DNA from: Rufibacter roseus
Lineage (GTDB): Bacteria; Bacteroidota; Bacteroidia; Cytophagales; Hymenobacteraceae
Reading direction: 5' to 3'
Assembly (NCBI RefSeq): GCF_001647285.1
Contig: NZ_LRML01000001.1
Span: forward strand, 434,001 to 498,000
Length of the DNA: 64,000 nucleotides
Part shown: one piece after another, positions 32,578 through 44,225 of the stretch
Layout: the number at the start of each line of letters is the position of its first letter
Numbering within the stretch: the stretch's first letter is position 1
Notes under the pieces: model-generated
Databases searched by the model: none
Seen by the model: only the letters and a program-made list of their open reading frames with translations
What the model was told of the DNA's origin: nothing
Made by a program: the position numbers and the translations under genes

Positions 32578-33906
32578 TTAGGTATGGCTGAGTAAGTTCT
32601 GCAACGAAGTGGAAACAGTTGCAAAGTCAGGTCTACATAGTGTTTCTGTCTGCAGGCAGTCTTGCCTGAGTTGTTGAAGAGCAGAAACAGCGGCATAAAG
32701 TTCCTCTTCAGGAGCTAGATGTGTGAGTAAATCATCTAGAAAATAGCCAAAGGCTCTCACTTCTATTCTTTCTAAGGCCGCGGCTTGGGCAGAAGTTGTG
32801 GTGCGGTAAATAGTGGCTGCTCCAAAATCGCCGAAGAGCGAGTGACCGGCATCGTTTATGAGGGTGTTGTGGGCGTACAGGTCGCCGTGCATAATGCAGC
32901 GGGCGTGCAGGTGTGCGGCGGCAGAGGCAATGCCTGCACTTATGGAGATGACTTCTTTTAAAGAGAAAGTAGTGCCAATTGGAAAGGTGTCACGGGTGCA
33001 GGTCTCAAAGCTTGGTGAGCCGCCTAAGTTGAGGTAGCCTGCAGGAATCAGCTCAAACACCAAACCCTGCTTCTGCTCTGGGTGCTGGCTTATTTTCCCA
33101 AGTGCCTGCACCAGATTTGGATGGGCCCCCGCGGCTAAACTGGCCTGCATTTCATCTTGCGGCAGTCCGTCGCTGGTTACCTCACCTTTGAAAATTTTCA
33201 CCGCCACTTCCTGTGTTAGCTTTTCTGAGACGGATTTGATCCAGCGCGCTTTAGAAATTACACCTGAGGCGCCTTCGCCTAGCTGTTCTTCTAGCTCTAG
33301 GTCAGCCCAGTTTATTTCTACAAGGTCTTCTTTTAATTCGGTAGGGGCGCTGCAGGGGTTTCCGGAGAAGGCCAGCCAAGACAGGCGAGGAAGAGAAAGT
33401 AACCACTGGGGGAATTGCTCTATCTGGTTAGCAGATATTCTGAGCAGTTCCAGGTTTTGGCAATTAGCCATTTCTGCCGGAAGCATTTTTAGTTTGTTAC
33501 CCGCCAGCATCAACTTCTGAATGCGGGAGCATTTTCCAATGGAGGTTGGTAAAGCCTCTATTTGGTTATCGGTGAGAATAAGCCAGCGGGTGTTTAAGGG
33601 AATAGCGCCTTCCGGAATGGTTCTGATTTTACACGCCTTAAAGCCAATCATTTCCAAAGCCGGACATTTGCCTAAAACAGCCGGAAATTCTACAAAGTTA
33701 TTGTTCGAGAAAAAGGCAATCTTTAGCTTTTTGAGCTGCACAAACCACTCAGGCAGGTCTGTAAGTTGATTACCAGAAACATCCAGCAATTCTAAGGTGT
33801 CTGCTAGCTCTAAAATTTCCTCCGGTAGCTTAGTTAGTCCGCAAGAGAGTTTGAGTGTTTTAGTGCCTGATAACTGCCCTGACTGTAGTTGGTGTAGCGT
33901 GTGCAT
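32578..33906 (-). CDS. Leucine-rich-repeat protein kinase-like protein
   Basis: 442 residues from the ATG at 33906 (MHTLHQLQSGQLSG), which matches the family start; a longer start at 33942 is possible. About eight LRRs (LELLDVSGNQLTDLPEWF-type) cover residues 20-200. A kinase-like domain follows: Gly loop LGEGASGVISKAR, Lys in EVAVKIF, catalytic loop IMHGDLYAHNTLIN (HGD in place of HRD, Asp and Asn kept), and DFG in LFGDFGAATIY. All catalytic residues are present, so it should be active on Ser/Thr or Tyr. No membrane segment. Substrate unknown. Confidence 0.88.
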   Translation of the reverse strand: MHTLHQLQSGQLSGTKTLKLSCGLTKLPEEILELADTLELLDVSGNQLTDLPEWFVQLKKLKIAFFSNNNFVEFPAVLGKCPALEMIGFKACKIRTIPEGAIPLNTRWLILTDNQIEALPTSIGKCSRIQKLMLAGNKLKMLPAEMANCQNLELLRISANQIEQFPQWLLSLPRLSWLAFSGNPCSAPTELKEDLVEINWADLELEEQLGEGASGVISKARWIKSVSEKLTQEVAVKIFKGEVTSDGLPQDEMQASLAAGAHPNLVQALGKISQHPEQKQGLVFELIPAGYLNLGGSPSFETCTRDTFPIGTTFSLKEVISISAGIASAAAHLHARCIMHGDLYAHNTLINDAGHSLFGDFGAATIYRTTTSAQAAALERIEVRAFGYFLDDLLTHLAPEEELYAAVSALQQLRQDCLQTETLCRPDFATVSTSLQNLLSHT

Positions 33907-34040
33907 GAAGCCTATAGAAGATGAAGCCGCAAAGCTACGCATTGCAACTCAGGGCATAGGCGCCTTTTGTAAAGAAGGTGCTGTCAAAATATTTATCAGA
34001 ATGAATCCTAGTTTTTTGTCTTGACTGGGAACAATTTCCT

Positions 34041-34076
34041 GTTTTCAACCTGTTTTTTAAAAATCAGAGGGAAAAT
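34041..34076. repeat. P palindrome copy 15
   Basis: Arms GTTTTCAACCTGTTTTTT and AAAAATCAGAGGGAAAAT, in the divergent gap between the LRR-kinase gene and the sulfur cluster; one of the few copies not at a gene end. Confidence 0.55.
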
Positions 34077-34195
34077 GAAAACTCAGTTGTTGTGAAAGCG
34101 TTAAACCTTTAGTGTAATCTTTAACAGAACGTTAACTAACAGGTGTTTGTGCTGTCAAATTTCTAGTTTAAATCTCTACTAATTTGATAGGAAAA

Positions 34196-34226
34196 CTTGA
34201 TTTGTAAAAAATGGTGCCTATCTTTG
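34196..34226 (+). promoter_or_regulatory. Bacteroidota-type promoter of the sulfate-assimilation cluster
   Basis: CTTG (34196-34199), exactly 19 nt, then TATCTTTG (34219-34226), an exact TAnnTTTG -7 element. The start point would be near 34230, about 30 nt before the Cys-rich leader ORF. GGTGC / GCACC around the -7 element is a small inverted repeat that a regulator could read. Confidence 0.65.
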
Positions 34227-34261
34227 CACCATCTTAATTAACAGCCAGAAAAAAGACTAAC

Positions 34262-34330
34262 ATGGTCTACTCTTCTTACATAATGCGAATGCGCTTCTGC
34301 TGTTGCAGCACCTGCTGCTGTTGTTGCTAG
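34262..34330 (+). CDS. Cysteine-rich leader peptide upstream of cysH
   Basis: 22-residue ORF with its own ATG, starting MVYSSYIMRMRF and ending CCCSTCCCCC then TAG: eight of the last ten codons are Cys (TGC/TGT). It lies about 32 nt after the predicted transcription start and 81 nt before the cysH ATG. Runs of the end-product amino acid codon in a short leader ORF are the hallmark of attenuation, where ribosome stalling reports low charged tRNA-Cys. Cys-rich leader ORFs are established upstream of sulfur genes in mycobacteria. No classical terminator hairpin is seen after it; GCAGCA/TGCTGT within the Cys codons and TGCC/GGCA with a T6 run (34355-34374) are only weak stems, so the mechanism is open. 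Confidence 0.72.
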   Translation: MVYSSYIMRMRFCCCSTCCCCC

Positions 34331-34411
34331 TACCTCTGGCTTCAACAAATTTCTGTTTTTTGCCCTTAGTGGCACTCTTAAATCAAATTTCTTACTACGT
34401 ATTTTCTTGCC

Positions 34412-35152
34412 ATGGCCTCTTCTAAACAAGAGCATGTGTCTCAATTGATACAAGAGACAGAAGGCTTAACCATAGATCAAACTTTCGCGTTGCTGCTGAG
34501 CCGTTACCCCGGTGAAGTGACGTTCTCATCAAGCTTCAGTTTTGAAGATCAGGTGATCACGCACCAAATTCTGGAGAATAATTTCCCCATCAGCATCTTC
34601 ACGCTAGATACTGGCCGCCTGTTCCCAGAGACTTACTCCGTCTGGAACAAGACCAACGATGCCTATAACACCCGCATCAAGGCCTATTATCCTAAAGCTG
34701 ATCTGATTGAAGACTATGTGACGGATAGAGGCCCTAATGCTTTCTATGAGTCGGTGCAGAACCGCAAAGACTGCTGCTTCATCAGAAAAGTGGAGCCTCT
34801 GAAACGGGCACTGGCAGGGCAGGCCATCTGGATTACCGGCCTTCGGGCTGAGCATTCTCAGGGTCGTGGCGATTTGCCTAAGTTTGAGTGGGACGAGGGA
34901 AACCAGTTGATCAAGTTTCACCCGGTGCTGCATTGGACAACTGATGAGGTAAGGGCTTTTGTGAAGCAACACAACATTCCTTACAACCACCTGCACGACA
35001 AAGGCTTTATCAGTATTGGCTGTGCGCCGTGTACCAGAGCCATTCAGCCGGGTGAAGATTTCAGAGCCGGCCGCTGGTGGTGGGAAGACAGCAGCAAAAA
35101 AGAGTGTGGTTTGCACGTAACGGAGTCAGTAGCTCCAGAAGTAGCTTCTTAA
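34412..35152 (+). CDS. cysH: Assimilatory adenylylsulfate (APS) reductase, 4Fe-4S type
   Basis: 246 residues, PAPS-reductase fold: SSSFSFEDQVITHQIL phosphate-binding loop and TLDTGRLFPETY. Cys pairs CC (121-122) and CAPC (204, 207) are the 4Fe-4S ligands that distinguish APS reductases from cluster-free PAPS reductases. The catalytic Cys is 232 in KKECGLH. This fits a cluster with no APS kinase: sulfate to APS to sulfite directly. cysD follows after 26 bp. The thioredoxin donor is not in the window. Confidence 0.95.
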   Translation: MASSKQEHVSQLIQETEGLTIDQTFALLLSRYPGEVTFSSSFSFEDQVITHQILENNFPISIFTLDTGRLFPETYSVWNKTNDAYNTRIKAYYPKADLIEDYVTDRGPNAFYESVQNRKDCCFIRKVEPLKRALAGQAIWITGLRAEHSQGRGDLPKFEWDEGNQLIKFHPVLHWTTDEVRAFVKQHNIPYNHLHDKGFISIGCAPCTRAIQPGEDFRAGRWWWEDSSKKECGLHVTESVAPEVAS

Positions 35153-35178: not shown

Positions 35179-36087
35179 ATGGGTTCATATAAATTAGATT
35201 ACCTAGATCAGTTAGAATCAGAGGCGATTCACATTTTTAGAGAGGTTGCGGGTCAGTTTGAGCGTCCGGCTTTGTTGTTCTCCGGCGGAAAAGATTCTAT
35301 TGTGCTGGTGCATCTGGCATTGAAAGCCTTTAGACCTGGCAAATTCCCTTTCCCGCTGGTACACGTAGATACCGGTCATAACTTTCAGGAAGCCCTTGAT
35401 TTCAGAGATTACCTGGCCAACAAACTGGGTGAGAAGCTGATTGTGCGCAAGGTAGAAGATACCATTAAAGCCAAAGGCCTTACTGAGCAAAAAGGTAAAC
35501 TGCCTAGCCGTAACGGTTTGCAGACTTACACGCTTCTAGACACCATTGAAGAGTTTGAGTTTGACGCCTGCATTGGCGGTGCCCGCCGTGACGAGGAGAA
35601 AGCCCGCGCCAAAGAGCGTATCTTCTCCGTGCGTGACGAGTTCGGCTCTTGGGATCCTAAGTTGCAGCGCCCTGAGTTGTGGAACACCTACAACGGAAAG
35701 ATAAACAAAGGCGAAAACGTGCGCGTGTTCCCTATCAGTAACTGGACTGAGCTGGATATCTGGAACTACATCCGCCGCGAGAAAATTGAGCTGCCTTCTA
35801 TCTACTTTGCCCATGAGCGCGAGGTGCTGGAGTTTGATGGTCGTTTGGTGGCCACGAATGAATTCATCCAGCTAATCGATACTGATGTAGTGAGCCGCAA
35901 AGTAGTACGTTACCGTACTGTGGGCGACATGACCTGTACCGCCGCTGTTGAGTCTACCGCTTCAACCTTAGACGACATCATCAACGAAATCATTGCTACT
36001 AACACCAGCGAGCGTGGACAAACCCGCATTGACGACCGCGTGTCAGAAGCCGCCATGGAAGACCGCAAGAAGAACGGGTATTTCTAA
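35179..36087 (+). CDS. cysD: Sulfate adenylyltransferase subunit 2
   Basis: 302 residues, the typical size. ATP-PPase loop PALLFSGGKDSIVLVHLALKAF, then FPLVHVDTGHNFQEALDFRD, CIGGARRDEEKARAKERIFS and FPISNWTELDIWNYIRREKI. Forms APS from ATP and sulfate with the GTPase subunit CysN. The two subunit genes are usually adjacent with little gap; here 303 bp of repeats separate them. Confidence 0.96.
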   Translation: MGSYKLDYLDQLESEAIHIFREVAGQFERPALLFSGGKDSIVLVHLALKAFRPGKFPFPLVHVDTGHNFQEALDFRDYLANKLGEKLIVRKVEDTIKAKGLTEQKGKLPSRNGLQTYTLLDTIEEFEFDACIGGARRDEEKARAKERIFSVRDEFGSWDPKLQRPELWNTYNGKINKGENVRVFPISNWTELDIWNYIRREKIELPSIYFAHEREVLEFDGRLVATNEFIQLIDTDVVSRKVVRYRTVGDMTCTAAVESTASTLDDIINEIIATNTSERGQTRIDDRVSEAAMEDRKKNGYF

Positions 36088-36140
36088 GACATTAGACACA
36101 AGATTTAAGACACAGGATTTTTTATCACCCTAATCTTACC

Positions 36141-36240
36141 TCTTTTGTCATCCTGAAAAGATCTCGGTAGCGAACGGTAATAGCAATTGCTAAAAAGCTT
36201 TTCTAGTACGCCCACAAGATCTTTCCAAGATGACAAAAGA
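36141..36240. mobile_element. MITE-like 100-bp element (M repeat, full length)
   Basis: Exactly 100 bp between TCTTTTGTCATC ... (36141-36164) and its inverse ending ... GATGACAAAAGA (36217-36240): 24-bp terminal inverted repeats with 22 matches. Interior CGGTAGCGAAC and TAGCAATTGCTA. No coding capacity. Left-half copies occur at 37744 and 40634. Confidence 0.75.
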
Positions 36241-36313
36241 GAGAAGAGATGAAAGGAATGGAAACCTGAATCAATAAAATATCAAAGAGTACTTCAGACA
36301 GGAGCCCAAACGT

Positions 36314-36350
36314 GTTTTCCGCCTGTTTTTCTAAAAACAGCACCAAAAAC
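36314..36350. repeat. P palindrome copy 16
   Basis: Arms GTTTTCCGCCTGTTTTT and AAAAACAGCACCAAAAAC, in the cysD-cysN gap, 41 bp before cysN. Confidence 0.65.
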
Positions 36351-36390
36351 AACTCTGGACTCAGAACTCAAGACTCAGAACTACTTCAAA

Positions 36391-37668
36391 ATGGATATTC
36401 TAAGATTTTTAACCGCCGGTAGCGTAGACGATGGCAAAAGTACCCTGATTGGTCGCTTGTTGTATGACAGCAAATCCATCATGGTGGACCAGCTGGAAGC
36501 CATTGAGCGAAGCACCAAGAACAAGGAAGAAGGCAAAGTAGATTTGGCTTTGCTGACCGATGGTTTACGGGCCGAGCGGGAGCAGGGCATCACCATAGAC
36601 GTGGCCTACAAATACTTCTCTACGCCGAAGCGCAAGTTTATCATTGCCGATACTCCGGGGCACATTCAGTACACCCGTAACATGGTGACCGGCGCGTCTA
36701 ACTCAGACTTGGCCATTATCTTGATTGATGCCCGCCACGGGGTGGTAGAGCAAACTCGTCGTCACTCCATTATTGTGTCATTGCTGAACCTGCCGCACGT
36801 GGTAGTAGCCGTGAATAAAATGGACCTGGTGGAGTTCTCACAAGATGTATACAACAATATTGTGATTGAGTATGCCCAGGTAGCTAAGTCATTAGGCCTG
36901 AAAAACGTAACCTTCATTCCTATCAGTGCCTTGAACGGCGACAATATTGTCGACAAATCATCGGCTATGCCTTGGTACGAGGGTGAGTCTTTGTTAGGAG
37001 TTCTGGAGACGGTAGAAGTACATGAAGACATTAACCTGACCGAGGGACGTTTCCCGGTGCAGTACGTGATTCGCCCTCAGACTGATGAACTGCATGATTA
37101 CCGTGGCTACGCTGGTAAAATCATCAGCGGTATCTACAAAAAAGGTGATAAGGTCGTGGTACAGCCATCGGGTGTGGAGAGTACTATTTCTGCCGTGGAA
37201 GTAGCCGGAGAAGAAGTAGAAGAAGCTTTCGCGCCGCAAAGCGTGGTGCTGCACTTAGCCGATGACGTGGACATTAGCCGCGGCGACGTGATTGTTAAGC
37301 AAGACGCGCCGGTACAGGTGGCCCAGGAGTTTGAAGTGGTACTGTGCTGGATGAGTAACACTCCGCTGTTACCCCGTAACAAGTACTTGCTGCAAATCAA
37401 CAGCCGCACCGTGCGGGCCGTGGTAAAAGAACTGCACTACAAACTGAATGTGAACACACTGGAGAAAGAGCTTTCTCCGGTTTCAGCAGGCCTGAACGAT
37501 GTGGTGAAAGCTGTGATCAAAACAGCTTCGCCCGTGGTGTTTGACACTTACCAAAAGCTGAGAGCTAACGGCGGCGCCATCTTAATTGACGAAACCAGCA
37601 ACGTAACCGTAGGCGCCTGTATGATTACCACAGAAGCGAAAGAAAAGCCTTTTTGGCCTGAAATTTAA
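36391..37668 (+). CDS. cysN: Sulfate adenylyltransferase subunit 1 (GTPase)
   Basis: 425 residues. EF-Tu-like GTPase: G1 AGSVDDGKSTLIGRLLYD, switch EREQGITIDVAYKYF, G3 ADTPGHIQYTRNM, G4 VNKMDLV. Two beta-barrel domains follow. The protein ends at the barrel, with no CysC (APS kinase) fusion, consistent with the APS-type CysH. The last six codons (PFWPEI and stop) are also the left arm of P copy 17, so the repeat reaches into the coding end. Confidence 0.96.
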   Translation: MDILRFLTAGSVDDGKSTLIGRLLYDSKSIMVDQLEAIERSTKNKEEGKVDLALLTDGLRAEREQGITIDVAYKYFSTPKRKFIIADTPGHIQYTRNMVTGASNSDLAIILIDARHGVVEQTRRHSIIVSLLNLPHVVVAVNKMDLVEFSQDVYNNIVIEYAQVAKSLGLKNVTFIPISALNGDNIVDKSSAMPWYEGESLLGVLETVEVHEDINLTEGRFPVQYVIRPQTDELHDYRGYAGKIISGIYKKGDKVVVQPSGVESTISAVEVAGEEVEEAFAPQSVVLHLADDVDISRGDVIVKQDAPVQVAQEFEVVLCWMSNTPLLPRNKYLLQINSRTVRAVVKELHYKLNVNTLEKELSPVSAGLNDVVKAVIKTASPVVFDTYQKLRANGGAILIDETSNVTVGACMITTEAKEKPFWPEI

Positions 37669-37684
37669 AAAACAGGCTGAAAAC
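37649..37684. repeat. P palindrome copy 17, overlapping the cysN stop codon
   Basis: Arms CTTTTTGGCCTG and AACAGGCTGAAAAC; the cysN TAA (37666-37668) is inside the loop region. Confidence 0.6.
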
Positions 37685-37743
37685 GGAAAGTAAAGTTTGT
37701 TTCTGCCTTTGGATAAACTGCTTTGCCTCTTGGCGTTTCTCCC

Positions 37744-37785
37744 TTTTGCCATCCTGAAAGGACCTTGTGGGCGAACTAGGAAAGC
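37744..37785 (+). repeat. M repeat, left half
   Basis: TTTTGCCATCCTGAAAGG then ACCTTGTGGGCGAACTAGG: the left end and interior of the M element without the right inverted repeat. Confidence 0.6.
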
Positions 37786-37814
37786 ATCAGTTTAATTTAA
37801 AAATGTCACTTCTT

Positions 37815-37859
37815 CGTCCCCCTTTGGAGGGGGTAGGGGGAGGACAAAGCCGGTGGAGG
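37815..37859 (+). repeat. CCCCCTTT-AGGGGG hairpin repeat
   Basis: CGTCCCCCTTTGGAGGGGG then TAGGGGGAGGACAAAGC. Follows the M half-copy here and again at 40702, so the two travel as a composite. Confidence 0.6.
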
Positions 37860-37906
37860 AATTAAAAGCCTCAATCATATAAAGAAATAATGAACCCTAA
37901 ACCGCT

Positions 37907-38041
37907 CTTCCGGATTTGTAATCCGGAAGTACCGTACTCGTCGGATTTGCAATCCGACACGCATAGCTGATAAAATAGTTAGCAATGCAAAAGGGATTAA
38001 AAATCCCCAGCTACCCAAGTTCGGGATTGCAAATCCCGAAC
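37907..38041. repeat. Array of four AATCC-type palindromes
   Basis: Four hairpins with different stems and 3-nt loops: CTTCCGGATT/AATCCGGAAG (37907-37929), GTCGGATT/AATCCGAC (37940-37958), GGGATT/AATCCC (37993-38007), GTTCGGGATT/AATCCCGAAC (38019-38041). All share GGATT or GGGATT next to the loop. Ends 29 bp before cobA. REP-like; the local RAYT uses a different sequence. Confidence 0.8.
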
Positions 38042-38070
38042 AGCAAAAGAAAGAACACAGCATTAATCAA

Positions 38071-38892
38071 ATGAACCCAGCACAAACAGCAGCCAAAGTA
38101 ATCATAGCAGGCGCCGGTCCCGGTGACCCTGATTTGGTTACCGTGAAGACGGTGAAAGCCTTGCGCTGGGCCGAAGTGATTTTGGTGGACCGGCTAGTGA
38201 GCGAGGAGATTCTGGAAAGCTATGCCTCACCCAATGCCGAGATTGTGTACGTGGGCAAGCAGTGCCGCAAAGAGGGCACCACGCCTCAGGCTACTATAAA
38301 CGAGCTGCTACTGGAGTATGCGCTGCTTGGCAAAAAAGTGCTCAGGTTGAAAGGCGGAGATGTCTCCATCTTCTCCAACGTGCTGGACGAGCTGCAGACC
38401 CTGGTAAAGCACGAGATTGCCTACGAAATCATTCCGGGCATTACGGCAGCCTTGGGGGCGGCGGCGTACGCGGGCATTCCGCTTACGGCCCGTCAGCATT
38501 CTACGGCAGTTCGCTTCCTTACCTTTTACACCTACAGCAAACTCACCGAGGAGTATTGGCAGGAGCTGGCCCAGACCGAAGACACGCTGGTATTTTACAT
38601 GAGCAGTGAGCGCCTGGGCGAGGTGGTTGAGAAACTGACCCGCCATGGCATCTCTGAAGAGAAGCAGCTGGCAGTAGTGGAGCAGGCTACTACGCCGTTG
38701 CAGCACGTGCAGACCAGCAGCTTGTACGACTACCAAAAGAACCTGGGTGACAAAACGTTTGTCTCGCCCAGCCTCGTGATTATTGGCAAAGTGGTGCACC
38801 TGCACCAGCAATATAAGTGGTTCACAAACAACCCAACCAGAGAACATTACTTCAAGCCTATTTCTGAACAAGTAGGTTTGGTACTTCAATAA
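38071..38892 (+). CDS. cobA: Uroporphyrinogen-III C-methyltransferase
   Basis: 273 residues. SAM-dependent methyltransferase making precorrin-2: VIIAGAGPGDPDLVTVKTVKAL, VILVDRLVSEEIL, LRLKGGDVSIFSN and EIIPGITAALGAAAYAGIPLTARQ are the tetrapyrrole methyltransferase motifs. First step to siroheme, the cofactor of CysI; the next enzymatic step is in the Met8-TSUP fusion downstream. Stand-alone SumT rather than fused CysG. cysJ follows after 12 bp. Confidence 0.92.
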   Translation: MNPAQTAAKVIIAGAGPGDPDLVTVKTVKALRWAEVILVDRLVSEEILESYASPNAEIVYVGKQCRKEGTTPQATINELLLEYALLGKKVLRLKGGDVSIFSNVLDELQTLVKHEIAYEIIPGITAALGAAAYAGIPLTARQHSTAVRFLTFYTYSKLTEEYWQELAQTEDTLVFYMSSERLGEVVEKLTRHGISEEKQLAVVEQATTPLQHVQTSSLYDYQKNLGDKTFVSPSLVIIGKVVHLHQQYKWFTNNPTREHYFKPISEQVGLVLQ

Positions 38893-38904
38893 TTTTTCAA
38901 AGCG

Positions 38905-40614
38905 ATGTTAGCAGAAGTTAAGTTAAAGACCCTACAGGAACTGGTAAGTCAGTCATCTAAAGAAGACCTGATTTGGATGAGCGGCTACTTGGCCGGCCTT
39001 GCGGCGCACCAGAGCGGCACTGTCGCTGCGCCAGCAGTGGCTGAGGCCGCAAAGCCCGCCGTGGGGCGCATTACCATTGCCTACGGCACCGAGACCGGCA
39101 ACTCCAAGCGCGTGGCTACTGACTTGGCTAGCAAAGCGAAGAAAACCGGCATCAACGCCAAAGTAGTCAACCTGGACCAGTACCGGGTGACAGACCTGGA
39201 AAAGGAAGAATACTTCCTAACCGTGATCAGCACGCAGGGCGAGGGAGATCCACCAGCGGGTGCCCAGAAGTTCTATGATTACGTGCACCAAACCGATAAG
39301 CAGTTGCCAAAGCTGAAATACAGCGTACTGGCTCTGGGGGACACCTCATACCCGCTGTTCTGCAAAGCCGGTGAAGACGTAGACGCCCAGCTGAAGCGTT
39401 TAGGCGGCAGCCCACTGGTGCCTATCCAGAAGTGCGATGTTGATTACGAAGACGAGGCCAATGCCTGGTTCCAGAACGTAATGCAAACCCTGACCAGCGC
39501 CGGTTCTTCTGCAGCAGCTGCACCAACTGCCGCGCCAGCTGCAGCTAAAAAAACGGGCAAGAAAATCTACTCCGGTACCATTCTCACCAACATTATTTTG
39601 AATGATGTTGGCTCCAATAAAAAAACGCACCACATAGAAATAGAGGCCGAAGACTTGGCCTACGAGCCCGGCGATGCTTTGGGTGTGGTGCCTAAAAACA
39701 GACCAGCCACGGTAGAGGCCATCCTGAAAATAACCGGCATCTCAGCCGAGGAGAAGCTGACGCACCGCAACAGCGAGGCCACGGTGCAGGAGCTGCTGCA
39801 GGACAAGCTGAACATCACTTACCTGCCGGAGCGCGTGGTGAAGAAATACGCCGAGGTGGTGGAGCAAGACATTCCGGCTACCCGCATTGATTTGCTGGAC
39901 CTGTTGAGAATCTATCCAGTCAAAGACGCGGCTCAGTTCAGAGAAGTGCTGCAAGTGCTGGAGCCCATTGCGCCCAGGCTTTATTCAATCTCTTCGTCTC
40001 TGGAGGCCCATTCCGGTGAAATACACGTGACCGTGGCGCGGGACGAGTTCAGAATAAACGAAGAACTGCTTTGCGGCCACTGCTCAGATTACCTGTCAGA
40101 GCTGCCCGAGGGAACTGCCGTGGAATTCTATATCCACAAGAACAGCCAATTCAAGTTACCGGCCGCTGATAAAGATGTGATCATGATCGGACCGGGTACG
40201 GGCGTGGCGCCGTTCCGCTCATTCCTGGCCGAGCGTGACGCCGTGGGTGCCGATGGCCGCAACTGGCTCTTCTTCGGAGACCAGCACTTTGTAACCGACT
40301 TCCTGTACCAAACTGAGATACAGAGCTGGTTTGAGACGGGCGTATTGACCAAGTTCAACGCAGCTTTCTCAAGAGACCAAAAGGAGAAAGTGTACGTGCA
40401 GCACAAAATGCTGGAGAACGCCAAAGACTTCTACGAGTGGCTGAACTCAGGAGCCTACGTGTACGTGTGCGGTGCCAAAGAACCTATGAGCGTGGACGTG
40501 GAGAACACCCTGCTGCAGATCATTGGCCTGGGTGCCGGCTCAAGCCCTGAAGAAGCTGCCGTTTACCTAGAGCAGCTGAAAGAGGAGGGCCGTTACCTGA
40601 AAGATGTGTATTAA
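38905..40614 (+). CDS. cysJ: Sulfite reductase [NADPH] flavoprotein alpha-component
   Basis: 569 residues. FMN flavodoxin domain at about 50-195 (ITIAYGTETGNSKRVATDLA, STQGEGDPPAGAQKFYDY, LALGDTSYPLFCKAGEDVD), an Ala/Pro linker, then the FAD domain (RLYSISSSLEAHSGEIHVTVARDE) and the NADPH domain (MIGPGTGVAPFRSFLAERD, YVYVCGAKEPMSVDVENTL). Passes electrons NADPH to FAD to FMN to CysI. The initial 45 residues are a short helical extension. Confidence 0.94.
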   Translation: MLAEVKLKTLQELVSQSSKEDLIWMSGYLAGLAAHQSGTVAAPAVAEAAKPAVGRITIAYGTETGNSKRVATDLASKAKKTGINAKVVNLDQYRVTDLEKEEYFLTVISTQGEGDPPAGAQKFYDYVHQTDKQLPKLKYSVLALGDTSYPLFCKAGEDVDAQLKRLGGSPLVPIQKCDVDYEDEANAWFQNVMQTLTSAGSSAAAAPTAAPAAAKKTGKKIYSGTILTNIILNDVGSNKKTHHIEIEAEDLAYEPGDALGVVPKNRPATVEAILKITGISAEEKLTHRNSEATVQELLQDKLNITYLPERVVKKYAEVVEQDIPATRIDLLDLLRIYPVKDAAQFREVLQVLEPIAPRLYSISSSLEAHSGEIHVTVARDEFRINEELLCGHCSDYLSELPEGTAVEFYIHKNSQFKLPAADKDVIMIGPGTGVAPFRSFLAERDAVGADGRNWLFFGDQHFVTDFLYQTEIQSWFETGVLTKFNAAFSRDQKEKVYVQHKMLENAKDFYEWLNSGAYVYVCGAKEPMSVDVENTLLQIIGLGAGSSPEEAAVYLEQLKEEGRYLKDVY

Positions 40615-40629
40615 GTAATTATACTCTTC

Positions 40630-40679
40630 TCCGCTTTGTCATCCTGAAAGGATCTTGTGAGCGAACTAGAAAAGCGGAG
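40630..40679 (+). repeat. M repeat, left half, with its own 9-bp flanking inverted repeat
   Basis: CTTTGTCATCCTGAAAGGAT and CTTGTGAGCGAACTAGAAAAG, bounded by CTCCGCTTT (40630) and AAAGCGGAG (40671-40679), so this truncated copy has acquired new matching ends. Confidence 0.6.
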
Positions 40680-40701
40680 ATGTAGTGTTTTGCACGCATT
40701 T

Positions 40702-40726
40702 CGTCCCCCTTTGAAGGGGGTAGGGG
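40702..40726 (+). repeat. CCCCCTTT-AGGGGG hairpin repeat, copy 2
   Basis: CCCCCTTTGAAGGGGG then TAGGGG, 23 bp after an M half-copy, as at 37815. Confidence 0.6.
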
Positions 40727-40743
40727 ATAAAACAAAAGCACCT

Positions 40744-40779
40744 GTTTTAGGCTTGTTTTCTGAAAAATAGCCCCGAAAC
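40744..40779. repeat. P palindrome copy 18
   Basis: Arms GTTTTAGGCTTGTTTTC and GAAAAATAGCCCCGAAAC, between cysJ and cysI. Confidence 0.65.
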
Positions 40780-40834
40780 AGAATATAAAAATAGAACAGG
40801 AGAGATCCTGCCCAACATATTAAGACCAGTTCAC

Positions 40835-42517
40835 ATGTCAACTGAGAAACAGAACCTGTCGCCGGTAGAGCGCATCAAAGAAACAAGCCAAGGGTTACGG
40901 GGAACATTAAAAGACAGCCTGAAAGACGAAATCACCGGCGCCATCCGCGAGGATGATACCAACTTGGTGAAGTTTCACGGCATGTACATGCAAGACGACC
41001 GCGATCGCCGCGAGGAAAGAGCTGCCAAAAAACTGGAGCGCCTTTATTCGTTCATGATCCGGTTGCGCCTGCCAGGTGGTTTCCTGACTCCGGAGCAGTG
41101 GGTGGCTACGCACCACATTGCCGGCGAGAATTCTACGGGCGTGATCAAAATCACCACGCGCCAGACGCTGCAGTTGCACGGCATTGTGAAGTCGAAGACC
41201 AAGCCTACCATTAAGGCGTTCAACCAGGTGGGGCTGGATTCTATTGCTGCCTGCGGCGATGTGAACCGCAACGTGGTGGCCACGGCCAATCCGCTGGAGT
41301 CGCCGTTGCACGAGCGCATTTACCAGTACGCCGACCGCATCAGCGAATACCTGCTGCCCAAAACCCGCTCGTATTATGATGTGTGGCTGGACGAGGAGAA
41401 AATCTACGACAAAGTAGAAGAGGAAGATCCGCTGTACCAAGACCGGTACCTGCCCCGCAAGTTTAAGATAGGTTTGGTGATTCCGCCCAATAATGATTCT
41501 GACGTTTTTGCGCAGGATTTGGGCTTAATTGCCATCATTGAGAACAACGAGCTGAAAGGCTTTAACATCGCCGTAGGCGGAGGACTTTCCTTCACCCACG
41601 GTAACCCTGATACCTACGCACGTCTGGCCTCTATTCTTGGGTTTGTGAGCACCGAGGAGTCTGATGAAAAGCTGTTTAAAACAGTTTATGAGGTGCTGAC
41701 CGTACAGCGCGATTTCGGGAACCGGTCTGACCGCAAACGCGCCCGCGTGAAATACACCATTGACAACCTGACCGTTGAGGGTTACCGGAAAGAGCTGGAA
41801 AGCCGCATCGGGTTCGAGCTGGAAGAGGCTCGTCCGTACCAGTTGACCACTCGCAAAGATCACTACGGATGGGTGCAGACCGATAATGGGGCCTGGCATT
41901 ACACCGTGTTTGTGGAGAACGGTCGCGTGCTGGATCTGGAGAACGGAGCCGCACTGAAAACCGCCCTCTTAGAGGTAGCCGAAACGGGCAAAGCCAACTT
42001 TAGGTTTACTTGTAACCAAAACGTGATCCTGAGCGATATCACCCCAGAGGATAAAGCTTTAATTGAGCAGATTCTGGTGAAGCACAATGTGATTCCGCAC
42101 ACTGAGGCTGCCTCTCTGCTACGTAAGAATGCCATGGCCTGTGTGGCGCTTCCTACCTGTCCACTGGCCCTGGCCGAAGCCCAGCGGTATCTGCCGGAGC
42201 TCATCACTAAGGTAGATGAAGTAGTAGCGAAACACGACCTGCAAGACGAGGAAATCATCATTAGAATGACCGGTTGCCCCAACGGCTGCGGCCGTTCGGT
42301 ACTGTCAGAGATTGGCTTTATTGGTACCGCTCCCGGTCACTACAACCTCAACCTGGGCGGTGATCATGAGGGCGAGCGCCTGAACAGAATTTACAGAGAG
42401 AACATCGACGAAGCCACTATTCTACAGGAGCTTGATCTGGCATTCGCCAACTTCAAAGAGAACCGTCTGGCGGGCGAACGCTTCGGTGATTTCGCTAACC
42501 GCGTGCTGCTGAACTAA
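40835..42517 (+). CDS. cysI: Sulfite reductase [NADPH] hemoprotein beta-component
   Basis: 560 residues, normal length. Two sulfite-reductase ferredoxin-like repeats: RLPGGFLTPEQWVATHHIAGENSTGVIKITTRQTLQLHGIVKS and YGWVQTDNGAWHYTVFVENGRV. The siroheme/4Fe-4S ligands are the four Cys in CVALPTCPLALAEAQRYLP and MTGCPNGCGRS. Reduces sulfite to sulfide with six electrons supplied by CysJ. Confidence 0.95.
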   Translation: MSTEKQNLSPVERIKETSQGLRGTLKDSLKDEITGAIREDDTNLVKFHGMYMQDDRDRREERAAKKLERLYSFMIRLRLPGGFLTPEQWVATHHIAGENSTGVIKITTRQTLQLHGIVKSKTKPTIKAFNQVGLDSIAACGDVNRNVVATANPLESPLHERIYQYADRISEYLLPKTRSYYDVWLDEEKIYDKVEEEDPLYQDRYLPRKFKIGLVIPPNNDSDVFAQDLGLIAIIENNELKGFNIAVGGGLSFTHGNPDTYARLASILGFVSTEESDEKLFKTVYEVLTVQRDFGNRSDRKRARVKYTIDNLTVEGYRKELESRIGFELEEARPYQLTTRKDHYGWVQTDNGAWHYTVFVENGRVLDLENGAALKTALLEVAETGKANFRFTCNQNVILSDITPEDKALIEQILVKHNVIPHTEAASLLRKNAMACVALPTCPLALAEAQRYLPELITKVDEVVAKHDLQDEEIIIRMTGCPNGCGRSVLSEIGFIGTAPGHYNLNLGGDHEGERLNRIYRENIDEATILQELDLAFANFKENRLAGERFGDFANRVLLN

Positions 42518-42551
42518 ATCTTACCCCCAGCCACGGAGAATTCTGAAAAGC

Positions 42552-42587
42552 GTTTTGAGCCTGTTTTACAAAAAGCAGGCTCAAAAC
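42552..42587. terminator. P palindrome copy 19 (cysI 3' hairpin)
   Basis: GTTTTGAGCCTG / CAGGCTCAAAAC pair perfectly, 34 bp past the cysI stop. Confidence 0.7.
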
Positions 42588-42722
42588 ATAGTAACACAGC
42601 AGCGCATTAATTTTGCTAGCTCAGGTCTACAGAACGTTTAGCGCTAGGGGGCAAGAAGCTTCTGTCTTGCTCAATCATACTGATAAAAGAACAATCATCA
42701 ATCAACAATCAGCCATTCTAAA

Positions 42723-44225
42723 ATGCCTGCTGCCGCTGTAATTAAAGAGCAAAATGAGCTGTTTCCGGTTTTCCTGAAACTGGAGCACCTGCGTGTGCTG
42801 GTGGTGGGCGGCGGCAACGTGGGACTGGAGAAATTGACGGCGCTGCTGCAAAACTCTCCTACTATAACTATAAAAGTTGTGGCTATACAGTTCAACGAGG
42901 CGGTGCTGCAACTGGCTCTGAACCACGACAACATTTCGCTGGTGCCCAAAGCGTTCAACCCGGAAGATGTGGCTGGTTCTGATATAGTCATAGTGGCCGT
43001 AAATGACCGTGAGGCTAGCCGCGCTATCAGTCTAGAGGCCAAACGGCAGGGCAAACTGGTAAACGTAGCTGACACTCCTGACCTCTGCGATTTCTACCTG
43101 AGCTCAGTAGTGCGCAAGGGCAACCTGAAAATTGCCATCTCTACCAACGGCAAGTCACCTACCATGGCCAAGCGCCTGAAAGAGACTTTTAATGAGGTGC
43201 TGCCCGATGAGCTAGATCAGGTGCTGGACAATCTGCAGCAAATCCGGAACCGCCTGAAAGGTGATTTCGCCTCCAAAGTGACCCAACTAAATGATATTAC
43301 CAAAGTGTTAGTGACCTCTGCCCCAGAAAAGAAAAAGGCAGCAAAGAAAAAGCAATCTGTTCTTTTTTATGCTTTTCTGGCTGTTGTCTTCACCTTGTTG
43401 GGTGTAGTACTCTCTTCTTTTGCGCCTGTGCAGGAAGTTTTGGTGCAGGCCCAGGAATACGGAAAGTCCATTGACAAACTGTTTTACTGGATGATCTTGG
43501 CCGGTTTTGTGGCCCAAATGGTAGATGGAGCCTTGGGTATGGGCTACGGCGTTACCAGCACCACCATTCTCATGTCATTGGGCGTGAACTTGCCGGCCAT
43601 CAGCGGGAGTATCCATACCGCTGAAGTTTTTTCCAGCGGGGCTTCGGGCTACAGCCACTACAAGTATGGCAATGTAAACAAGAAGCTGTTCAAGGTGCTG
43701 CTCATTCCAGGGGTGATTGGGGCTATTCTGGGCGCGTATTTGCTAAGTGTGGTGGGCGAGGAGTACGGTAGTTCTGTGCGCCCTTTCTTAGCGAGTTATA
43801 CGCTTGTGTTGGGGGCTAGAATTTTCTACGCAGCCTTCCGGAAAACCAAAGCCCGTAAAAAGATTAAAAAAGCAGGCTGGCTAGCTGGCGCTGGTGGATT
43901 CTTAGATTCCTTTGGCGGCGGCGGTTGGGGACCATTGGTGGCTAGTACTCTTATTTCAAAAGGCCGTACTCCGCGCTTCGTGATAGGATCGGTTAGCATC
44001 ACTGAGTTTTTTGTGGCTCTGGCTAGTTCCCTAACTTTCTTTGTAATGCTCGGATTGAGCCACTTACATATCATTCTGGGCCTGGTGATAGGAGGTGTTA
44101 TTGCGGCTCCCATAGCTGCCCGCCTGGCTGGTAAATTACCTGTGAAAACTATGTTCATAGCAGTAGGTTCGCTGGTGATCATCTGGAGCCTCAGGATTCT
44201 GCTGAAAGCGGTAGGCCTGTTTTAA
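42723..44225 (+). CDS. Fusion: Met8-like precorrin-2 dehydrogenase + TSUP (TauE/SafE) transporter
   Basis: 500 residues. Residues 1-195 are the NAD-binding siroheme-synthase domain (LFPVFLKLEHLRVLVVGGGNVGLEK, VVAVNDREASRAISLEAKRQGKLVNVADTPDLCDFYLSSVVRKGNLKIAISTNGKSPTMAKRLKE), which oxidises precorrin-2 and may insert iron. A Lys-rich linker (201-212) leads to about eight membrane helices from 213. From about 254 these form a TSUP permease (GFVAQMVDGALGMGYGVTSTTILMSLG; GAGGFLDSFGGGGWGPLVASTLI). TSUP proteins move sulfite, sulfate or organosulfonates. Joining siroheme synthesis to a sulfur-anion transporter suits the cluster, which has no separate sulfate permease. I regard the fusion as real: one uninterrupted frame. 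Confidence 0.9.
   Translation: MPAAAVIKEQNELFPVFLKLEHLRVLVVGGGNVGLEKLTALLQNSPTITIKVVAIQFNEAVLQLALNHDNISLVPKAFNPEDVAGSDIVIVAVNDREASRAISLEAKRQGKLVNVADTPDLCDFYLSSVVRKGNLKIAISTNGKSPTMAKRLKETFNEVLPDELDQVLDNLQQIRNRLKGDFASKVTQLNDITKVLVTSAPEKKKAAKKKQSVLFYAFLAVVFTLLGVVLSSFAPVQEVLVQAQEYGKSIDKLFYWMILAGFVAQMVDGALGMGYGVTSTTILMSLGVNLPAISGSIHTAEVFSSGASGYSHYKYGNVNKKLFKVLLIPGVIGAILGAYLLSVVGEEYGSSVRPFLASYTLVLGARIFYAAFRKTKARKKIKKAGWLAGAGGFLDSFGGGGWGPLVASTLISKGRTPRFVIGSVSITEFFVALASSLTFFVMLGLSHLHIILGLVIGGVIAAPIAARLAGKLPVKTMFIAVGSLVIIWSLRILLKAVGLF

Follow-up and report, generated by a model that had tools for sequence, protein, structure and literature searches.

Upstream of cysH in the sulfate-assimilation cluster of Rufibacter roseus lies a short open reading frame (ORF) that ends in a run of cysteine codons, and this leader is very probably a ribosome-mediated attenuator, in which cysteine is sensed through translation of the leader itself. 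To judge from sequence comparison, it is one member of a wider set of Cys-run leaders in Bacteroidota, in which the run lies mostly at the stop codon or next to it. Premature termination of the Rho type before cysH, at plentiful cysteine, appears to be the most likely output, an assignment that we make tentatively. A sequence-only reading of this DNA had already proposed a cysteine attenuator, and the proposal is now supported by conservation of the ORF in every genome of the genus with cysH, by different Cys-run ORFs in other genera and by a second such leader before metY. Positions given below refer to the window, that is, the whole stretch of 64,000 nucleotides that was analysed.

The leader ORF before cysH and its conservation

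A promoter matching TTG-N19-TAnnTTTG, a 22-codon Cys-run ORF and 81 nt without a gene, followed by cysH, had been read from the sequence, and each of these elements was confirmed (Table 1). The ORF contains eight Cys codons, starts with ATG and ends just ahead of the gene-free stretch; the TTG and TAnnTTTG elements, which we take to be a Bacteroidota-type promoter motif, are readable by eye in all 14 rows of the alignment of the genus. Amino-acid attenuators are characterized by a short leader ORF in which codons for the amino acid of the pathway form a run, and this arrangement is found here for Cys. The genes from cysH to 44225 are probably co-transcribed, as gene order and strand suggest; their NCBIfam matches are strong for cysN, cysJ and some others, yet below some equivalog cut-offs. 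The upstream neighbour (32578-33942, minus strand) is divergent, so the gap of about 320 nt holds the sulfate operon's own leader.

Table 1. Positions of the leader, its predicted RNA elements and the adjoining genes in the window
Feature	Position	Strand	Basis
Palindrome-like box CTACTAATTTGATAG, 5' of the promoter, possible operator	34176..34190	+	conserved block, 14-genome alignment
Promoter: TTG (34197-34199), 19 nt, TATCTTTG (34219-34226)	34197..34226	+	direct reading
P0: 5' UTR segment AACAGCCAGA, predicted to pair with first Cys codons (34295-34304)	34240..34249	+	RNAalifold; nearly invariant
Cys-run leader ORF MVYSSYIMRMRFCCCSTCCCCC (ATG at 34262, stop at 34328-34330)	34262..34330	+	ORF listing; kept in 14/14 genus genomes with cysH
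Putative regulatory Cys codons 13-15 and 18-22	34298..34327	+	codon table, 14 genomes
H1: predicted hairpin within Cys codons (GCAGC/GCTGC)	34305..34318	+	hairpin scan, RNAalifold; never varies
H2: 34319-34323 and 34326-34330 with 34336-34340 and 34343-34347	34319..34347	+	compensatory changes, codon 22
Spacer from leader to cysH, 81 nt, 20 C and 9 G	34331..34411	+	base composition
H3: predicted hairpin in spacer (TGCC 34361-34364/GGCA 34371-34374), without adjacent T run	34361..34374	+	moderate support
cysH, (phospho)adenylylsulfate reductase	34412..35152	+	NCBIfam PRK02090 above cut-off
cysD, cysN, uroporphyrinogen-III methyltransferase, cysJ, cysI, CysG N-terminal-domain protein	35179..44225	+	NCBIfam

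Conservation of the ATG, the Cys run and the stop, which had been named as the check on the proposal, was assessed in 16 genomes of Rufibacter/Sabulibacter, the window's own included; a cysH match is present in 14 and none in G007 and G013. In all 14 cysH upstream regions the ATG, the frame, the run and the stop are kept, and the ORF aligns without an indel, with the consensus MVxxSxxxRMRFCCCSxxCCCx. Codons 13, 14, 15, 19, 20 and 21 specify Cys throughout, codon 18 in 13 genomes and codon 22 in 10 (Phe in two, Leu and Arg in one each). Five of these codons (14, 15, 19, 20 and 21) are invariant even at the wobble position, which suggests that the RNA is under selection in addition to the codons. 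A Cys-rich small ORF (sORF) is found in 14 of 14 upstream regions; dinucleotide shuffles give one in 0.33 of 14 on average, and the reverse strand gives none. Because these loci are related they do not count as 14 independent events; independence of evidence comes from other genera, which carry unrelated Cys-run ORFs.

Several minor features of the surroundings were noted. The palindrome-like box upstream of the promoter may serve as an operator. When its pattern CTAYTAAAYTGATAG was searched with at most one mismatch, the genome gave two matches, one of which is the box itself; the other is not at an obvious sulfur promoter, and the idea of an operator regulon was dropped. An inverted repeat like GTCTATC-N5-GATAGAC, which resembles the box, is seen near the inferred cysH transcript start, just after the cysH promoter, in L049, L052, L065 and other Chitinophagaceae-type loci, and from this similarity a sulfur regulator common to those loci and the window is possible. 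The divergent neighbour shows leucine-rich-repeat and kinase-like parts (NCBIfam matches weak, below cut-off), and at 42723-44225 the siroheme-synthase N-terminal domain is fused to a C-terminal half that by eye resembles a permease of the TauE/SafE type.

Cys-run ORFs before cysH in other Bacteroidota

We scanned the 600 nt before each cysH match (less at contig ends) for ORFs of 8-60 codons that start with ATG, GTG or TTG, contain at least four Cys in 10 codons and end at most 450 nt before the match; 11 weaker cysH matches and L078, which has only 56 nt of upstream sequence, were left out. Such an sORF is present at 10 of 16 cysH loci of other relatives (shuffle mean 0.25; reverse strand 0), at 21 of 40 named non-Rufibacter loci of Bacteroidota (shuffle mean 0.75; reverse strand 1), one of which, L080 with a TTG start, looks spurious, and at 10 of 68 loci of a class sample that takes in nine distant matches of at most 44% identity and leaves out three loci already counted among the relatives (shuffle mean 0.53; reverse strand 0). 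Cys-run ORFs before cysH in other Bacteroidota are therefore well above shuffles, with a patchy distribution. Homologous upstream regions lacking the ORF had been named as evidence that would speak against an attenuator: none was found within the genus, but outside it the ORF is absent at 6/16, 19/40 and 58/68 loci, counted whatever the place of cysH in its operon.

With a stricter filter (ATG-only, intergenic ORFs; 73 named loci with flanks of up to 6 kb), a Cys ORF lies at most 450 nt before cysH in 28 of 51 Bacteroidota loci, including 10 from the genus, only three occur elsewhere in the 577,577 bases of these loci and none before cysH in 22 loci from other phyla. Genome-wide counts of Cys5-stop strings were set aside as evidence and kept only for contrast, since out-of-frame TGCTGC runs abound in other genes and make such counts noisy: among the matches listed for Bacteroidia, 36 were examined, 32 of which lie inside larger ORFs, and of the other four two have an in-frame ATG, one of them the window's leader.

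The leader peptides of other genera are unrelated, as in MFISASIKYIFSCCCNNKCCCQ at L048 and MTIPNLSYIIVHKCCCCCSMRCC at L056; their N-terminal parts have nothing in common and vary in length, and what persists is mainly the Cys run close to the stop. This bears on the idea that the product is a functional Cys-rich micropeptide, binding a metal or acting in redox chemistry, with codons that sense nothing. The peptide is indeed conserved within the genus, but the divergence among genera and the five wobble-invariant Cys codons, for which a peptide alone has no need, make this explanation very improbable.

Two further ORFs were seen by the way. In another Bacteroidia genome a short ORF ending in MHAMMRMCCCCCCC lies 52 nt before a gene of the phytanoyl-CoA-dioxygenase family (L218), and in Mucilaginibacter (L073:9244) a Cys-rich leader-like ORF ending in MCCCCQ lies 80 nt before a gene whose product looks secreted, some 2.5 kb downstream of cysH.

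Folding of the leader RNA and the likely output

The leader RNA is predicted to be more stable than its shuffles (-47.8 kcal/mol, z -2.35), as would be expected of a structured RNA whose open frame is incidental or due to chance. That explanation is extremely improbable in view of the 14/14 conservation with its shuffle controls, the unrelated Cys-run ORFs at the same site in other genera and the in-frame length changes of the metY leaders described below. RNAalifold on the 14 rows returned four consensus elements, P0, H1, H2 and H3. The covariation term was +0.11 and so brought no gain, to which a misalignment of the window's row in the spacer contributed. P0 and H1 give no covariation evidence because they hardly vary, and H3 has weak to moderate support, each of its pairs being broken in one or two rows of that alignment.

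H2, in which the last Cys codons and the stop would pair with the spacer, was examined in a second, shorter alignment of 13 rows (L042, a near copy of L040, was left out; the window's row is one column off, so that several of its pairs were scored as unpaired). The 12 pairs of H2 are formed in 89.6% of the cells and three of them change on both sides; when the partner is slid by 1-3 columns, pairing falls to 23-53%. Out of 500 shuffles, seven reached the covariation score and 14 the percentage paired, whereas the numbers of pair types (186) and of pairs (36) and cells (31) with double changes were not striking. In an alignment-free comparison of all 14, pairing the native leader ends with their own spacers gives a total of -150.2 kcal/mol, a value reached by 9 of 20000 permutations of the spacers. 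Neither the shuffle nor the permutation controls remove the relatedness of the sequences. The compensation is visible in single species: with the consensus arm in place of the native one, the predicted energy of H2 weakens from -10.7 to -4.4 in L012 and L017 (TTC species) and from -12.4 to -8.6 in L015 (CTC species), and the opposite is seen in L016 (-8.6 native, -11.0 with the consensus arm). Taken together, the pairing predicted between the spacer and the end of the leader (last Cys codons and stop) is conserved, with compensatory changes.

We then folded only the RNA downstream of a ribosome whose edge was assumed to lie 15 nt downstream of the point where the A-site codon begins. When the ribosome occupies the first Cys codon, H2 is part of the minimum-energy fold in 12 of 14 species (the exceptions being L014 and L016); with the ribosome on the second Cys run or at the stop it is absent from the predicted folds, by construction, because its 5' arm is covered. 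In the proposed model the leader would work as follows. The operon transcript would start about 30 nt before the leader ORF, as placed from the promoter, and ribosomes on the leader would sense charged tRNA-Cys at the eight Cys codons. At scarce cysteine they would stall on the first Cys run, leaving the last Cys codons and the stop free for H2, which together with H3 would close the spacer. At plentiful cysteine they would reach the stop and leave, H2 would be kept open and the C-rich, G-poor spacer would be exposed.

The composition of the spacer fits Rho, as composition and not as a rut site. Its mean content over the 14 loci is 0.293 C and 0.112 G, against 0.146 C and 0.196 G in 31 cysH upstream regions without a leader ORF (Mann-Whitney U test, 1.5e-6), a comparison among related sequences in which the 31 controls were hand-picked from the negatives. 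In leaders linked to SAM-I riboswitches (see below), the 80 nt before the gene are biased alike relative to SAM loci without a Cys leader (Mann-Whitney U test, 6.7e-8, again among related sequences), and the first 80 nt after the stop are no different from these controls (p = 0.15).

In attenuators of the trp and his type, a leader ORF carries a codon run for the amino acid that the pathway makes, and antiterminator and terminator alternatives follow. The run and the matching pathway are shared by the Rufibacter leader; the intrinsic terminator with an exclusive antiterminator before the first gene that trp-type attenuation requires was not found in the window. The earlier observation that the 81 nt hold no obvious terminator was upheld: a hairpin scan of 34000-34500 gave no canonical terminator in the spacer, and the single terminator-like hairpin of that interval is H1, inside the Cys codons. 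A hairpin-plus-T scan likewise gave no terminator in the three of the 14 genus loci that it covered (L009, which is the window's, L014 and L022). The same sensor could still act by trp-type attenuation if H3 were a weak intrinsic terminator and spacer segment B part of the antiterminator. The RNA allows alternatives A:B, B:C and C:D on paper, and in some species B:C is predicted when the second Cys run is occupied by the ribosome (e.g., L011, L013, L018 and L021); however, no T run directly follows H3 and B:C is not predicted in L012, L015 and L017, the species with a compensated H2, so that we regard this mechanism as distinctly unlikely in Rufibacter.

Such a device is predicted in three relatives, L083 and L084 (Chitinophagales MAGs) and L060 (a Bacteroidetes MAG), in which a Cys-run or Cys-rich leader is followed by an intrinsic terminator. 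Over 40 loci, the hairpin-plus-T scan gave matches between leader and cysH in L083 and L084 only, the other matches overlapping the leader's end (L034) or lying upstream of the leader (L112 and L060); the scan missed the spacer terminator of L060, which was recognized by eye. If the stretch from the ribosome to the 5' arm of the terminator is folded, this arm is paired upstream when the ribosome occupies the final Cys codon of the run (-26.2, -24.7 and -14.4 kcal/mol in L083, L084 and L060, respectively) and also without a ribosome, and is unpaired upstream with the ribosome at the stop (-4.8, -2.5 and 0.0), where the terminator forms. The completed terminator is the minimum-energy fold in every ribosome state; the antiterminator would therefore need a kinetic advantage, as it has in known attenuators. 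In these models the three loci have both the terminator and the antiterminator of the trp type, and they qualify as such attenuators where the window does not.

A further alternative keeps the cysteine sensor and makes translation of cysH its output, leader translation or stalling altering the folding around the start in the ermC-like or mycobacterial manner. The spacer without a terminator, the strong conservation of the segment just before the cysH ATG and the translation attenuation described for M. smegmatis cysteine genes in an excerpt of PMC13236596 all agree with it. Against it, the predicted accessibility of the cysH start shifts modestly between ribosome positions and in no common direction (0.37-0.52 in the window), and three relatives carry a transcription terminator. 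We consider a translational output rather unlikely; sequestration of the start codon, the specific form tried, was rejected since the predicted change is only modest.

The preferred output, Rho-type termination, has a partial parallel in tnaC of Escherichia coli, where a ribosome sits at the end of the leader and Rho acts downstream. The likeness holds if the Rho reading is right; the difference is that tnaC stalls and senses through its peptide and tryptophan, whereas in Rufibacter the codon run is the likely sensor. The tna operon is also named in an excerpt of PMC1262725, which, for want of terminators, suggests Rho for the mycobacterial cys leaders.

SAM-I riboswitches and the relation to known leaders

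At the window's cysH there is no SAM match (33900-34500, even with E up to 5), and in a search of the leader region Rfam gave nothing at gathering score (best E 0.52). The SAM-I riboswitch (RF00162) does occur at two other places in this genome, before metY and before metH. Elsewhere, RF00162 (64-79 bits) lies upstream of the Cys-run ORF in 15 of 30 non-Rufibacter cysH loci scanned (14/20 and 1/10), and SAM-I directly precedes the Cys leader at metY, at some cysH loci and at other genes.

To relate the two elements we took 59 Cytophagales genomes with 117 SAM-I places, of which 115 were examined (two, in G359 and G056, were left out), and counted ORFs with at least four Cys in 10 codons that start from -45 to +120 of the aptamer end; the target classes were named by sequence motifs and not by family search. 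A Cys-run ORF follows SAM-I before metY at 20 of 31 places and before metH at none of 30, or of 32 with L236 and L242 assigned by hand (metY against metH, Fisher p = 6.3e-9, uncorrected for relatedness). The counts are 0/4 for metX, 0/3 for other PLP lyases, 0/2 for nifS-like genes, 1/5 for cysH and 13/38 for other genes, and two places have no gene in the stretch. Of the cysH loci with a SAM riboswitch, L026, L029, L030 and L036 score 0/4 by the start-window rule, and the first three count as having a Cys sORF under looser start rules. Among the 34 SAM-linked leaders, 31 start 7-14 nt after the aptamer (about 9 nt), 32 start with ATG and in 25 the Cys run abuts the stop, which is a further difference from trp/his-type leaders. 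Pfam matches were obtained for 12 of the 13 "other" targets (none for L271): amino-acid permease (2), sulfite/nitrite reductase (1), PAPS reductase (1), Cys/Met PLP enzyme (1), TonB plug (3), RimK ATP-grasp (2), AhpC/TSA (1) and Na/H antiporter family (1).

The 16 genomes of the genus hold 46 SAM-I places above cut-off (one below it was dropped). Before metY, 15 of 16 leaders have at least four Cys in 10 codons, the sixteenth (L375) having three and ending in GCCCR; none of the 16 metH loci with SAM-I has a Cys-run ORF; of the 14 other loci, nine pass the threshold and all have at least three Cys. The metY leaders are 43-49 codons long and their Cys run stays in frame, as expected of a translated leader. 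That of the window's own genome, MEKQIQPTSDNSKPYKRMATYVTPSIAMDSISMRMCGCCCCCL (43 codons, contig C8, L275/L354), follows SAM-I at 85666-85777 on the minus strand; by eye, the MRM before its Cys run recalls MRMRFCCC of the cysH leader.

A two-input device in Bacteroidota is a real possibility, if still conjectural, in which the output of the SAM-I riboswitch is a Cys leader ORF that in turn reads charged tRNA-Cys. SAM binding would close P1, which ends on its 3' side about 9 nt ahead of the leader start, and would thereby gate leader translation; metY, cysH and transporters, which serve cysteine and methionine supply, would be expressed only if SAM and cysteine were low together. The metH gene would keep the riboswitch alone, and the window's cysH leader would be the riboswitch-free form. 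One genome thus offers a natural comparison, with the Cys leader only at cysH, both elements at metY and the riboswitch only at metH, and lets one test whether a leader ORF can be the output of a riboswitch.

Among known systems, Canestrari et al. in 2020 reportedly studied a Cys leader of M. smegmatis with a leaderless start; here, 35 nt separate the end of TATCTTTG from the ATG, with the transcript start placed from the promoter, and such a start would not apply. In actinobacterial cys operons (Mycobacterium, P. acnes), as an excerpt of PMC1262725 describes them, leader ORFs likewise carry a Cys run near their end, with the cys operon downstream and no conserved terminator; mycobacterial Cys sORFs also appear in excerpts of PMC9094748 and PMC13236596. 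Those leaders belong to another phylum, with no sequence likeness noticed, and the Rufibacter leader differs in the conserved pairing predicted for its last Cys codons and stop with the spacer, and in that many of its relatives stand behind a SAM-I riboswitch. The uORFC-8-2 motif before cysS of Rhodobacterales, read as ribosome-mediated attenuation in an excerpt of PMC8632094, also has its leader Cys codons within a paired region, but differs in having two tandem Cys codons, cysS as target, an intrinsic terminator and an alphaproteobacterial host.

Attenuators as such are not new to Bacteroidota (excerpt of PMC9723704), and sORFs in 5' UTRs are reported for B. thetaiotaomicron (excerpt of PMC7366714). 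On the riboswitch side, SAM-II is treated in S. meliloti (excerpt of PMC9373788) and contiguous riboswitches in PMC12452182, the main text of which contains neither "Bacteroid-" nor "leader peptide". The open literature searched, including an excerpt of PMC2965389, gave no description of such leaders for Bacteroidota cys genes; subscription papers were mostly outside its scope. If the attenuator reading is true, cysteine would be sensed by leader translation on the main sulfate-assimilation genes of a phylum for which we found no such description, and a SAM riboswitch would often be linked to it at an almost constant distance. This suggests that short intergenic Cys-run ORFs in Bacteroidota are worth examining as regulators and that some SAM riboswitches may have a second input.

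Five of the 16 genomes of the genus have two or three extra SAM-I riboswitches, each followed by a leader ORF ending in Cys (L343, L346, L347, L348, L358-L361, L372-L374, L378, L381 and L385); judged by eye, the genes behind them seem to encode outer-membrane or ATP-grasp proteins.
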